NCBI GenBank assembly: GCA_009786925.1
Contig: WRGY01000118.1
Span: forward strand, 1 to 37,239
DNA length: 37,239 bases
Direction: 5' to 3'
DNA from: Defluviitaleaceae bacterium
GTDB taxonomy: Bacteria; Bacillota; Clostridia; Lachnospirales; WQUN01
Positions 319-3,646 of this stretch are shown here, piece after piece. The notes beneath the pieces are model-generated. The model was not told the DNA's origin. It did no database searches and saw only the letters and a program-made list of their open reading frames with translations. The number at the start of each line of letters is the position of its first letter. The stretch's first letter is position 1. Position numbers and translations under genes: made by a program.

Positions 319-371
319 TGGAGCATAGCGGGATCGAACCGCTGACCTCTTGAATGCCATTCAAGCGCGCT
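319..371 (-). pseudogene. tRNA-Ala(GGC) 3' half (53 nt), partner of 3625-3646
   Basis: On the minus strand this reads from the end of the D-arm through the anticodon arm (loop ATGGCAT, anticodon GGC), variable region, T-arm (AGCGG, loop TTCGATC, CCGCT), acceptor strand ATGCTCC and discriminator A. The 5' half is missing and replaced by the repeat at 372-400. Joining it to the 5' half at 3625-3646 through a shared AG gives a 73-nt tRNA-Ala. That joined tRNA has a full acceptor stem (GGGGCAT with ATGCTCC), including the G3-U70 pair that identifies tRNA-Ala. The T-arm is undecayed, so the split looks recent or is tolerated. Confidence 0.85.
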
Positions 372-400
372 GGCAAGGTGGTCGGAAACACTCCCTGAAG
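372..400 (-). repeat. Element end repeat, copy D
   Basis: Read on the plus strand this copy is GGCAAGGTGGTCGGAAACAC followed by TCCCTGAAG. It is one of four related 29-bp sequences, each directly joined to a tRNA-Ala fragment. Its core (TGGTCGG, then AAACAC, then CCC) is shared with copies at 1563-1591, 3596-3624 and 3740-3768. The copies next to 3' halves are inverted relative to the copies next to 5' halves, as expected for the two ends of an inserted element. Confidence 0.75.
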
Positions 401-410
401 AACCCATTGC

Positions 411-662
411 CTAACTTTTATAAATATCGCCTCTATTGCCTGCATCAACTACTGTAATTTTCAAAACCATATCATCTTTCGTGTATAAAATGCGATAATC
501 CCCAACACGAAGACGATACGATTTTATACGTCCTTGCAATGGGGTTATATCACCCATATTCGGCAGTTTTTGGATGGCTGATAACAACTGTAATTGCCGT
601 GTTTTTGATTGTGAAGTTATAAACTTCATTGCCCTTTTCTCAATTATTATCGTGTACTTCAT
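411..662 (-). CDS. RelE/ParE-family toxin (type II toxin-antitoxin)
   Basis: This 83-aa protein has the compact RelE/ParE layout: an N-terminal helical region rich in Lys and Arg, then RLRVGDYRILY at about 50-60, then a C-terminal strand ending VVDAGNRGDIYK. The arrangement is characteristic of RelE-type mRNA interferases and ParE relatives. The sequence does not decide between ribosome-dependent mRNA cleavage and gyrase inhibition. The start codon overlaps the end of the upstream antitoxin gene by four bases (ATGA), showing translational coupling. The antitoxin is made first, as is usual. The pair lies 11 bp from the right end repeat of the tRNA-splitting element and could stabilise it. Confidence 0.88.
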   Translation of the reverse strand: MKYTIIIEKRAMKFITSQSKTRQLQLLSAIQKLPNMGDITPLQGRIKSYRLRVGDYRILYTKDDMVLKITVVDAGNRGDIYKS

Positions 663-898
663 GGCAAGGCAATCCCTAATGAATCCGCAAACTCTTCTAA
701 TGTCATTGAGTCATGTTTGCTTGGGTCGGGGTCATCTAAATAGTCTTGGTAAAGTTTTTGACAATACGCCTCGTCCAAGGCTTCTTCAAGGGCATTGTCA
801 AAAACATCCTTCATGCTTTTCAAAACAACTAGGACACTACCTAATTGCTCCTCGCCAAAGTTATCAAGCAGGGCAATACATTCATCTCTGTTGGTCAT
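659..898 (-). CDS. Antitoxin partner of the RelE/ParE-type toxin
   Basis: This 79-aa acidic protein is preceded by a clear ribosome binding site (AAAGGGG). Its N-terminal half looks helical (LDNFGEEQLGSVLVVL). The C-terminal half is strongly acidic (DDPDPSKHDSMTLEEFADSLGI), as expected for a segment that wraps a basic toxin. The gene sits directly upstream of the toxin with a four-base overlap. I identify it as the antitoxin from position, size and charge; I do not recognise a classic RelB, Phd or HTH DNA-binding fold. Autoregulation of the operon is likely from the family but no operator was recognised. Confidence 0.75.
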   Translation of the reverse strand: MTNRDECIALLDNFGEEQLGSVLVVLKSMKDVFDNALEEALDEAYCQKLYQDYLDDPDPSKHDSMTLEEFADSLGIALP

Positions 899-979
899 GA
901 CTGCACCCCTTTCTGACGTTTACATTACCATGAAAAACAACCCATAGGCAACAAAAATTTACTTTTTACATAATATCTT

Positions 980-1153
980 TTAACTCCTGCTCTCTAAAGC
1001 ATCCAACTGCATTTTCTTTTCTTCTTCAAGAATATTTTCATCTATTTTTACCACAATACAATCATCACACATACCAATAGAGTCAAGACTCACCTCGTCC
1101 AAAATACATTCAAAAGCTCTGTTGTATAAACAGTAATCGTTAGCACAATTCAT
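980..1153 (-). CDS. Small Cys-rich protein of unknown function
   Basis: I chose the start at 1153 because GGAGGTG lies seven bases upstream. A longer in-frame extension to 1318 runs through the intergenic region and into the divergent gene, so I reject it. The 57-aa product has five cysteines (residues 3, 8, 16, 29 and 32). The spacing CANDYC, then FEC, then MCDDC suggests a small metal-binding domain. Similar short proteins occur in clostridial mobile elements, but I cannot name a function. It is transcribed away from the RHH gene at 1280, and the 126 bp between them probably carries both promoters. The RHH protein may regulate it. Confidence 0.6.
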   Translation of the reverse strand: MNCANDYCLYNRAFECILDEVSLDSIGMCDDCIVVKIDENILEEEKKMQLDALESRS

Positions 1154-1279
1154 TTCGCACACCTCCAATTTGCATATCATATCATATGAATAAATATGTT
1201 GCAAACTATTGTGTTTGCTATTTGTGTTCTTATTAGCAAGCAATAATTTTATTAAAATACAAACGGAGGTGATTGCTGC

Positions 1280-1465
1280 ATGAAAGATAAATTTGTAATA
1301 AAGCCCAAAAAAACACAATCTGTCACCATGACAATACGTATAGACAACGAAATTAATGAAAAGTTAGATGAACTAGCATTAAAAAGCAACCGTTCACGTA
1401 ATGAATTAATCAATATGTCTTTGCGCTATGCTTTTAAAAATTTAGAGTTTGAAGATGTTAATTAA
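1280..1465 (+). CDS. Ribbon-helix-helix (CopG/Arc-type) DNA-binding protein
   Basis: The 61-aa protein has a basic N-terminus, then a strand (SVTMTIRIDNEI) and two helices (NEKLDELALKSN and SRNELINMSLRYAF). This is the ribbon-helix-helix fold of small dimeric repressors and antitoxins. GGAGGTGATT precedes the ATG at good spacing. It is the only plus-strand gene in this part of the element. It faces away from the small Cys-rich gene and may repress it or itself. No toxin gene follows; the next feature is a terminator. It is therefore more likely a regulator than half of a conventional toxin-antitoxin operon. Confidence 0.8.
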   Translation: MKDKFVIKPKKTQSVTMTIRIDNEINEKLDELALKSNRSRNELINMSLRYAFKNLEFEDVN

Positions 1466-1474
1466 TAAAAAAAG

Positions 1475-1498
1475 CCCTACAGCATTTACGCTATAAGG
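1475..1498. terminator. Bidirectional terminator between the RHH gene and tRNA relic C
   Basis: A 9-bp stem (CCCTACAGC with GCTATAAGG, some G-U pairs) has an A-rich tract on the left and a T-rich tract on the right. It can end the plus-strand RHH transcript. On the minus strand it sits just after the tRNA 3' relic, the same relative place as the terminators at 281 and 3426. Confidence 0.65.
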
Positions 1499-2613: not shown

Positions 2614-3400
2614 TTAAAAATTCAGGGTCATATTTTGCATTTTCATGCATTGGGATTTCAACAATATCCCTCTATTGTTTCCATAAAAGTTAGAGTGTTT
2701 CCACTCTCCATTTAATTTTAGGGGTTTTTCTTTAATCCAATCCATAACGCGACCAAATTTATCCAATTTATCCTCTGGCATAATGGTCAAAGCCATTTTT
2801 ACATAAGTCTTAAAAGCAGCGATACCATCAAATTTCTGCTTAATGATGTTGAACCCGCTACGGACTAAATGATTTACTGGCTTTCCACAGTTGCGGCAAG
2901 GAAAAAAAGCATGTTCTATCAATGGATGCTCACAGTATTCACATATATACGTTCGTTTGATTCCGCCACATTCATTTAAATAAAAATCAACAATGAGCTT
3001 TGTACGTTCCACGCATTTGGTAGCTCTTGTTATTTTTTTTCTTTGTTTCGTATTTTACTTCTACATTGTGTTTCATATACAAGCCATCAGAGTTGAAATC
3101 TACAAGTCCATTTTTTCCTTTAATTCCTAGAATTGTGCGAATCGGGTTTAAGTTTTTTGATAGATGGTCTTCACACATTTTATTAAATATACCGCCACAC
3201 TTGTTACATTCATACACCGTAAATAAATACCTATTACCGAAAAACTCTGGAATGGCATGATTACCAGAACCATGTTTAGGTATCTCTGCATCTTTTCCAC
3301 AAAATCTACAGAGCAGACATCGGTTATCCTTCGGGTATGCTGGTAGATATTCTGCCGAATTATAATTTATGGCATTGTAGCCGATTAGTTTTTTATACAT
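2614..3400 (-). pseudogene. HNH-like zinc-finger protein gene, broken by a frameshift at an A8 run
   Basis: Two overlapping frames look like one gene. The first (2987-3400, 137 aa) has CRFCGKDAEIP, then NHAIPEFFGN and ECNKCGG, a pattern like HNH-type nucleases with paired CxxC zinc knuckles. The second (2614-3012) has another double zinc ribbon (CEYCEHP and CRNCGKP). Moving one base at the eight-A run on the minus strand (T8 at 3033-3040) joins KYETKKK directly to ITRATKCVERTKLIVDF with no stop. The product would be about 260 aa. The shift may be a real mutation, a sequencing error in a homopolymer, or slippage that still yields the full protein. The gene lies between the intact tRNA and the PIN pair. 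The HNH assignment is moderate; the split is clear. Confidence 0.6.
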
Positions 3401-3425
3401 TCCTCCAACCTCTTCCTAAAAAATA

Positions 3426-3456
3426 AAGCCTTGAAAACATAGAGTTTTCAAGGCTT
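3426..3456 (-). terminator. Rho-independent terminator of the intact tRNA-Ala
   Basis: A 13-bp perfect stem (AAGCCTTGAAAAC with GTTTTCAAGGCTT) with a 5-nt loop lies seven bases beyond the tRNA. It is followed on the minus strand by TTTATTTTTT. It is homologous to the terminator at 281-309. Confidence 0.92.
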
Positions 3457-3462
3457 AGGTCG

Positions 3463-3535
3463 TGGAGATAAGGGGAGTCGAACCCCTGACCTCTTGAATG
3501 CCATTCAAGCGCGCTCCCAACTGCGCCATATCCCC
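3463..3535 (-). tRNA. tRNA-Ala (anticodon GGC), intact
   Basis: The 73-nt cloverleaf is complete. The acceptor is GGGGATA with TATCTCC, including the G3-U70 pair that specifies alanine. The D-stem is GCGC/GCGC, the anticodon stem CTTGA/TCAAG with loop ATGGCAT (anticodon GGC, reading GCC/GCU), and the T-stem AGGGG/CCCCT with loop TTCGACT. The discriminator is A and CCA is not encoded. It has its own terminator. The nearest recognisable promoter is at 3816-3844, upstream of two broken tRNA 5' halves. The functional copy therefore seems to be transcribed through those relics. Confidence 0.97.
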
Positions 3536-3539
3536 ATAA

Positions 3540-3555
3540 CTCTCGTTTCCGAGAG
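3540..3555 (-). other. GAAA-tetraloop hairpin just upstream of the tRNA
   Basis: On the minus strand CTCTCG, GAAA, CGAGAG forms a six-pair stem with a GNRA tetraloop, four bases before the first base of the tRNA. It could help separate or process the tRNA from the upstream relic RNA. It has no T tract, so it is not a terminator. Confidence 0.5.
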
Positions 3556-3595
3556 GGTTATTTAATTTTCAAAATTGTGCGCCTCCGATGGACAA

Positions 3596-3624
3596 CTTCG
3601 GGGGTGTTTACCGACCAGTCCGTC
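3596..3624 (-). repeat. Element end repeat, copy B
   Basis: On the minus strand it reads GACGGACTGGTCGGTAAACA followed by CCCCCGAAG and directly continues a 22-nt tRNA-Ala 5' half. With the copy at 372-400 it forms the inverted ends of the 3.25-kb element. Confidence 0.78.
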
Positions 3625-3646
3625 CTCCCAGCTGCGCCAATGCCCC
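3625..3646 (-). pseudogene. tRNA-Ala 5' half (22 nt), partner of 319-371
   Basis: The sequence is the acceptor strand GGGGCAT, TG, D-stem GCGC and D-loop AGCTGGGA followed by G. It then stops abruptly at the element repeat. Its acceptor pairs with the acceptor strand at 320-326 (GGGGCAT with ATGCTCC) and not as well with the intact tRNA's TATCTCC. This identifies the distant 3' half as its other part. Confidence 0.85.

Follow-up and report, generated by a model that had tools for sequence, protein, structure and literature searches.

Small integrative elements apparently nested in a tRNA-Ala(GGC) gene, with a D-arm crossover and a carried replacement tRNA

Introduction

According to the Islander description of genomic islands, the integrases known to target tRNA genes are all tyrosine integrases, and none is known from the serine class; the crossovers lie in the anticodon loop, in the T loop or at the T/acceptor junction, and the element attachment site (attP) holds a partial tRNA that restores the cut gene (PMC4383910). 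Here we analyse a stretch of 37,239 nucleotides (the window), which is the entire contig C118 (WRGY01000118.1) of a Defluviitaleaceae genome (G000; 2.28 Mb, about 90% complete, 127 contigs) and in which halves of tRNA-Ala genes, an intact tRNA-Ala(GGC) gene and toxin-antitoxin genes lie together between positions 319 and 3790; we call this locus the stack. The stack resembles Islander islands in its integration into a tRNA gene, in a function that is kept by island sequence, in a displaced fragment at the far end and in its tandem insertions, but its crossover lies in the D-arm, its core is 2 bp and the cut tRNA is replaced by a separate, complete copy (PMC4383910). Tycheposons of Prochlorococcus, according to a second-hand description, are also tRNA-bordered cargo, but they use a tyrosine recombinase (XerD), span 4-200 kb and have a border arrangement unlike that of the stack (PMC10872708). 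In a later integrase paper (PMC12884075), a keyword check turned up no counter-example, within an incomplete coverage of the literature. The locus differs from the Islander description in crossover site and in restoration, and probably also in enzyme, and the suggestion of an earlier note on this DNA that its layout has no described precedent is upheld against that description.

Elements that use large serine integrases, such as the phages phiC31 and Bxb1 and elements of the Tn4451/Tn5397 type, have a palindromic attP of about 50 bp with a central dinucleotide, an unrelated chromosomal site (attB) and a single orientation. Large serine integrases typically show a palindromic attP with a 2-bp overlap at its centre, and tyrosine recombinases exchange across 6-8 bp of matching overlap. 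Staphylococcal cassette chromosome (SCC) elements resemble the stack, as interpreted here, in that they use serine recombinases at one fixed chromosomal site, form composite stacked islands and include some cassettes without a recombinase of their own; they insert at the 3' end of rlmH, which is kept, and their cassettes lie side by side, not nested, with no replacement gene. Integron cassettes share with the elements here a small size, a frequent toxin-antitoxin content and a stop codon near the recombination site. Unlike large-serine-integrase elements, the elements here target a tRNA gene, and those seen encode no integrase; unlike in integrons, insertion is nested in the newest tRNA and not serial at attI, and there is no sign of an integron integrase. 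SCC, for which we used the enterococcal form in the comparison (PMC6222049), is recognised by the rlmH 3' end together with ccr genes, whereas the target here is tRNA-Ala and the elements hold no serine recombinase gene.

Results and Discussion

We propose, with a probability of roughly 60%, that the locus is a stack of small integrative elements without recombinase genes that entered one tRNA-Ala(GGC) gene, each by a crossover at an AG dinucleotide through a serine integrase acting in trans. Positions 319-3790, read on the minus strand, comprise an intact tRNA-Ala(GGC) together with two 5' halves and two 3' halves of tRNA-Ala genes. The order begins with the native tRNA-Ala promoter as read from the sequence (3816-3844; TTGCAC, 17 nt and TATATT with a TG extension, TATGCTATATTA), followed by 5' half A, which ends in the AG core (3769-3790), a repeat that forms the right half of an attachment site (junction A, 3740-3768; GACGAACTGGTCAGTAAACACCCCCGAAG), 5' half B (3625-3646), a second right half (junction B, 3596-3624; GACGGACTGGTCGGTAAACACCCCCGAAG), the intact tRNA C (3462-3535; ARAGORN and Rfam, 65.4 bits) and its intrinsic terminator (3426-3456). 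Downstream of this terminator lie a decayed HNH gene, a PIN gene with its partner, a left half of the attachment site (junction D, 1563-1592) and the degenerate 3' half D (about 1511-1562), and then a ParE-type pair, another left half (junction E, 372-400), 3' half E, which starts with the AG core (319-371), the terminator of tRNA B (276-314, a perfect 17-nt inverted repeat) and the stretch 1-166. The tRNA halves are far above chance: 46 and 42 bases of the 53-nt 3' half of tRNA C match elsewhere (maximum 30 in 100 shuffled windows), as do 19 and 18 bases of its 22-nt 5' half (maximum 17). tRNA C is the sole tRNA-Ala found in the assembly, which is incomplete. The earlier note had described a tRNA-Ala gene cut in the D-arm by a single 3.25-kb element, and much of this stands: halves 3625-3646 and 319-371 share AG and form a full stem, the cut is bordered by inverted element ends, and between them lies an intact replacement tRNA with its terminator. 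However, the note gave one 5' half and one 3' half, and 5' half A and the degenerate 3' half D carry the same junction repeats.

The crossover lies in the D-arm of the tRNA and leaves a 22-nt 5' half and a 53-nt 3' half. In the arm comparison, the 5' halves end in GGGAG and run into GACG(A/G)(A/G)CTGGTC(A/G)G, and the 3' halves start with AGCGCGCTTG just after CCGACCA(N)CTCG(G/C)C or a near variant of it, so that AG is the sole sequence common to element and tRNA at the break. Outward from AG both arms have the same sequence, with 11.3 of 16 positions matching in register (mean of all pairs), whereas no other offset exceeded 6.2; a match this high did not occur in any of 5000 column permutations. 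Since the arms match in register outward from AG, AG is the dyad centre. From these arms a palindromic attP of about TTTCGGGGAGTGTTACCGACCAGCTCGGC-AG-GACGAGCTGGTCGGTAAACACCCCCGAA can be deduced, which would share its central dinucleotide with attB. The deduced attP holds no tRNA fragment able to regenerate the target; a whole second tRNA is carried instead.

Since the acceptor stems differ among the tRNA copies, they were used as barcodes for matching halves. Half B (GGGGCAT) pairs with half E (ATGCTCC) at 7/7 positions, six Watson-Crick pairs and G3-U70. Half A (GGGGGCG) fails to pair with E, and it pairs 7/7 with a third 3' half, F, on another contig of the same genome (G000:C60 at 1061); the pairs A-F, B-E and C-C (GGGGATA/TATCTCC) reach 7/7 each, and cross pairs 4-6/7. 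Half F runs into the flank ATTATTAGTGAACGTAGTCGAACC, and the same flank lies 3' of an intact tRNA-Ala in G033 and G015; it is also present in G009, there after a truncated ParE gene, and the next gene beyond it is the same methyltransferase-like gene as on C60. Because of the full barcode match and because the C60 flank is found 3' of tRNA-Ala in relatives, A-F appears to be the native tRNA. The split gene 3625/319, which the earlier note took for the host gene, thus appears to be a tRNA carried by an outer element, and the native gene to consist of half A and the 3' half on C60. Half D (ATTCTCT) best fits the allele GGGGAAT/ATTCTCC, which is intact in G009 and there trailed by the same ParD-like gene. 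Taken together, four junctions and three barcodes require nesting, which rules out one single 3.25-kb element; the stack would comprise three nested insertions, with the segment 319-3646 a composite of two islands, one of which lies within the tRNA that the other carries, and both inside a third. In the simplest history, element 1 (tRNA B and a PIN pair) would have entered the native gene, element 2 (tRNA D and the ParE pair) tRNA B, and element 3 (tRNA C, the HNH gene and a PIN pair) tRNA D, and the 5' half of D would have been lost, for example by recombination of adjacent junction repeats.

The earlier note had proposed looking for the repeat beside tRNA halves in other genomes, and it was found there, including one complete case. 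In G021, from another genus, a 2.0-kb element consists of a 5' half GGGGCAT with the repeat, an intact tRNA-Ala, a terminator, a gene for a 338-aa HNH protein and, at the far end, a RelE toxin and its partner, the repeat, a 3' half ATGCGCC and a terminator. Repeat-bearing 3' halves with toxin or antitoxin genes inside occur in G002, G003 and G037, and in G034 an intact tRNA is accompanied by cargo, a pair that looks PIN-like on inspection and a degenerate 3' half lacking a clear junction repeat. Scars of 5' halves lie directly 5' of an intact tRNA in G001, G033 and G035, the last with three such scars and a truncated tRNA, and a genome of another family of the same order (G126) has a scar with a 5' half of the host's own allele, GGGGGAT. 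In a search of 84,980 species genomes with a strict junction pattern, from which the window's own and very near records were possibly excluded, only three Defluviitaleaceae metagenome-assembled genomes matched, probably from termite guts to judge by their names; a looser pattern gave six matches in 392 genomes of the order. In all cases seen the tRNA-side end lies at the 5' half and the toxin-side end at the 3' half. If orientation is set by the asymmetric AG, a single polarity is to be expected; selection on the promoter side could be another cause. We regard these as genuine integrative elements that target a tRNA gene, cross over in its D-arm and replace the tRNA as a whole.

Each element would join the chromosome by a site-specific crossover at AG between the D-arm attB and the palindromic attP, which would leave the native promoter with the 22-nt 5' half and displace the 53-nt 3' half to the other end. 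A complete tRNA-Ala lies within the element at a distance of roughly 65-120 nt from the 5'-half junction, and toxin-antitoxin genes lie at the opposite end; the carried tRNA would be read from the captured promoter and expressed by read-through and RNase P processing. A weak, simple scan that also missed the native promoter gave no promoter-like site between the junction and the carried tRNA on its strand. A box TATGCTATA(T/G)TA lies 5' of the outermost half or of the unsplit tRNA in G033, G021, G035, G015, G019 and G009, with G001 as the exception. Because the carried tRNA holds the same attB, it would be open to the next insertion, which would produce nested stacking. Loss of cargo, probably by homologous recombination of the carried tRNA with the displaced 3' half, would leave a 5'-half scar before a working tRNA; the predicted product, promoter, 5'-half scar and intact tRNA with the native flank, is the arrangement in G033. 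A fuller account, for and against which we see the balance as even, is that these are non-autonomous islands with a serine-integrase D-arm crossover, in which the carried tRNA captures the promoter and regenerates attB inside the island, so that insertions nest repeatedly, the only tRNA-Ala(GGC) is the property of an element and the 5' halves record insertions.

This would be a second way to occupy an essential RNA gene, in which the cut gene is replaced outright and the target is moved into the island without repair. The carried tRNA and the toxin-antitoxin genes would make loss of the element doubly costly, and the scar ladder would be a readable record of past insertions. Were a serine integrase responsible, the tyrosine-only rule as stated (PMC4383910) would be broken, and alanine tRNA genes would provide a new integration site.

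A large serine integrase supplied in trans is the most likely enzyme. Such an integrase is pointed to because the 2-bp core sits inside a palindrome, and tyrosine exchange would not readily give these hybrid junctions because 6-8 bp must match and the junctions share 2. Serine recombinases with the PF07508 domain are found in 34 of the 38 genomes of the family. Several observations weigh against this interpretation. A serine or other recombinase gene was found in none of the elements, and no junction contig was among those with listed PF07508 matches. An unrecombined attP was not found in the 38 family genomes, IMG/VR, phages or plasmids. The 3' junctions of window D and of G002 read GG, not AG. 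The 5' half of D is absent from the stack, so its loss has to be assumed, and the outer element is on two contigs, so that the join of A and F across the gap is inferred from barcode and flank and not from continuous sequence. Matches of the 5'-half pattern and of a loose attP pattern in IMG/VR were unrelated phage genes and chance palindromes. A comparison of serine recombinases that left out several open reading frames (ORFs) gave one group common to G000, G001 and G035 (G000:C116, G001:C30 and G035:C6; about 46% identity) with no clear member in G021 or G033, and no assignment was made; a single candidate serine integrase was found in G021, on contig C14. Elsewhere in the source genome, three large serine recombinase genes lie in tandem (L133:10375-15201; G000:C79), and a further pair lies at G000:C74.

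The same junctions could also be produced by a target-specific transposon with terminal inverted repeats of about 29 bp that duplicates the 2-bp AG target in the D-arm and carries the tRNA as cargo, since inverted ends together with a 2-bp duplication yield such junctions too. We consider this unlikely: there is a single target in a single orientation, the elements have no transposase, and the genome holds no further close copies of the element ends, only matches with two or three mismatches at control level. Equally improbable, in our judgement, are tyrosine-recombinase islands in which heteroduplex repair produced the hybrid junctions and which were possibly served by the XerS-like tyrosine recombinase at 5868-6986, a gene that lies 2 kb from the stack and scores below the NCBIfam cutoff. 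Besides that neighbour, tyrosine integrases usually target tRNA genes (PMC4383910) and a tyrosine integrase adjoins the 3' half in G037; however, in the clean junctions tRNA gives way to element sequence within 2 bp, the D-arm is outside the three known subsites (PMC4383910), and inspection recognised no tyrosine recombinase among the ORFs of 14 kb around the G021 element. No tyrosine integrase was recognised in that element itself or in window segment 319-3790 either, and the sole match to integron-integrase profiles was the XerS-like gene, far below cutoff (no search was made for attC). That tandem tRNA-Ala copies simply duplicated and decayed independently, with junction repeats common by descent and no mobile element, is very improbable: some halves are degenerate (1511-1562) and the copies are alike enough for homologous recombination, but the break falls at the same nucleotide in the halves, which pair according to allele, the same ends recur in other genera and in one other family, and differing toxin cargo stops at the same junction.

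Toxin-antitoxin-type genes adjoin all eight of the 3' halves that were inspected. In the window, all on the minus strand, these are a PIN-domain protein, presumed to be a toxin (1865-2302; PF01850, E=5e-4, below cutoff), with a 93-aa partner, presumed to be its antitoxin (1594-1875), whose stop codon lies just ahead of the repeat of junction D, and a ParE/RelE-type toxin (411-662; PF05016, E=5e-6, above cutoff) with a 79-aa presumed antitoxin (659-898), a homologue of which lies 3' of the GGGGAAT tRNA in G009. A gene near-identical to that of the 93-aa partner is in the same place at G000:C60 and G002:C91. The HNH endonuclease gene (2540-3400, minus strand; HNH_5, E=5e-6, just under cutoff) has decayed through stops and frameshifts; its homologue is the intact 338-aa gene at the same position in the G021 element, with tblastn pieces 31-58% identical. 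HNH as the mobility enzyme is not favoured, as only two genomes of the family have it and its relatives include plasmid HNH genes. Between the HNH and PIN genes lies a GC-rich repeat (2398-2470) that resembles sequence in the G021 element and on near-tRNA contigs of G033, G015 and G037. A 90-aa ORF across a 5' half and repeat (3558-3830) was ruled out as a protein by inspection, its frame not being conserved among genomes. Positions 1-166 are 97.6% identical to G000:C117:27-192 and are probably an insertion-sequence end where the assembly broke off.

The ladder in G035 (L108:123-584; G035:C17) consists of 5' tRNA-Ala fragments of differing alleles ahead of an intact tRNA, and in one fragment (GGGGCAT...TTCAAGAG) the break instead follows the anticodon arm, as though another integrase had acted. 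A mini tRNA-like hairpin in the same genome (GGGGCGTT/AGCGCCCC) was set aside as it has one copy only, and a 27-kb island between the intact tRNA and the 3' half of G037 was considered, but the span looks like host genes and is not delimited. Right of the junction in G001 (one copy slightly altered), G033, G035 and G126 and at junction A there are two copies of (A/G)TGA(A/C)TGGCA, a sequence of the tRNA-Ala anticodon loop (window 3647-3740; L107:6928-7014; L104:9190-9250; L108; L166:1550-1630); the pair is absent at junction B and in G021. These copies are possibly protein-binding sites. Three copies of GAATGCCATTC lie near the 3' half of G037. The scarred-tRNA locus looks like a defence hotspot: candidate defence genes adjoin the scarred tRNA in G033 (HEC-05-like; L104:9569-11266) and G001 (NsnA/GmrSD-like; L107:5187-6293), and an FRG-like fragment, identified by inspection, lies 3' of the tRNA in G126.

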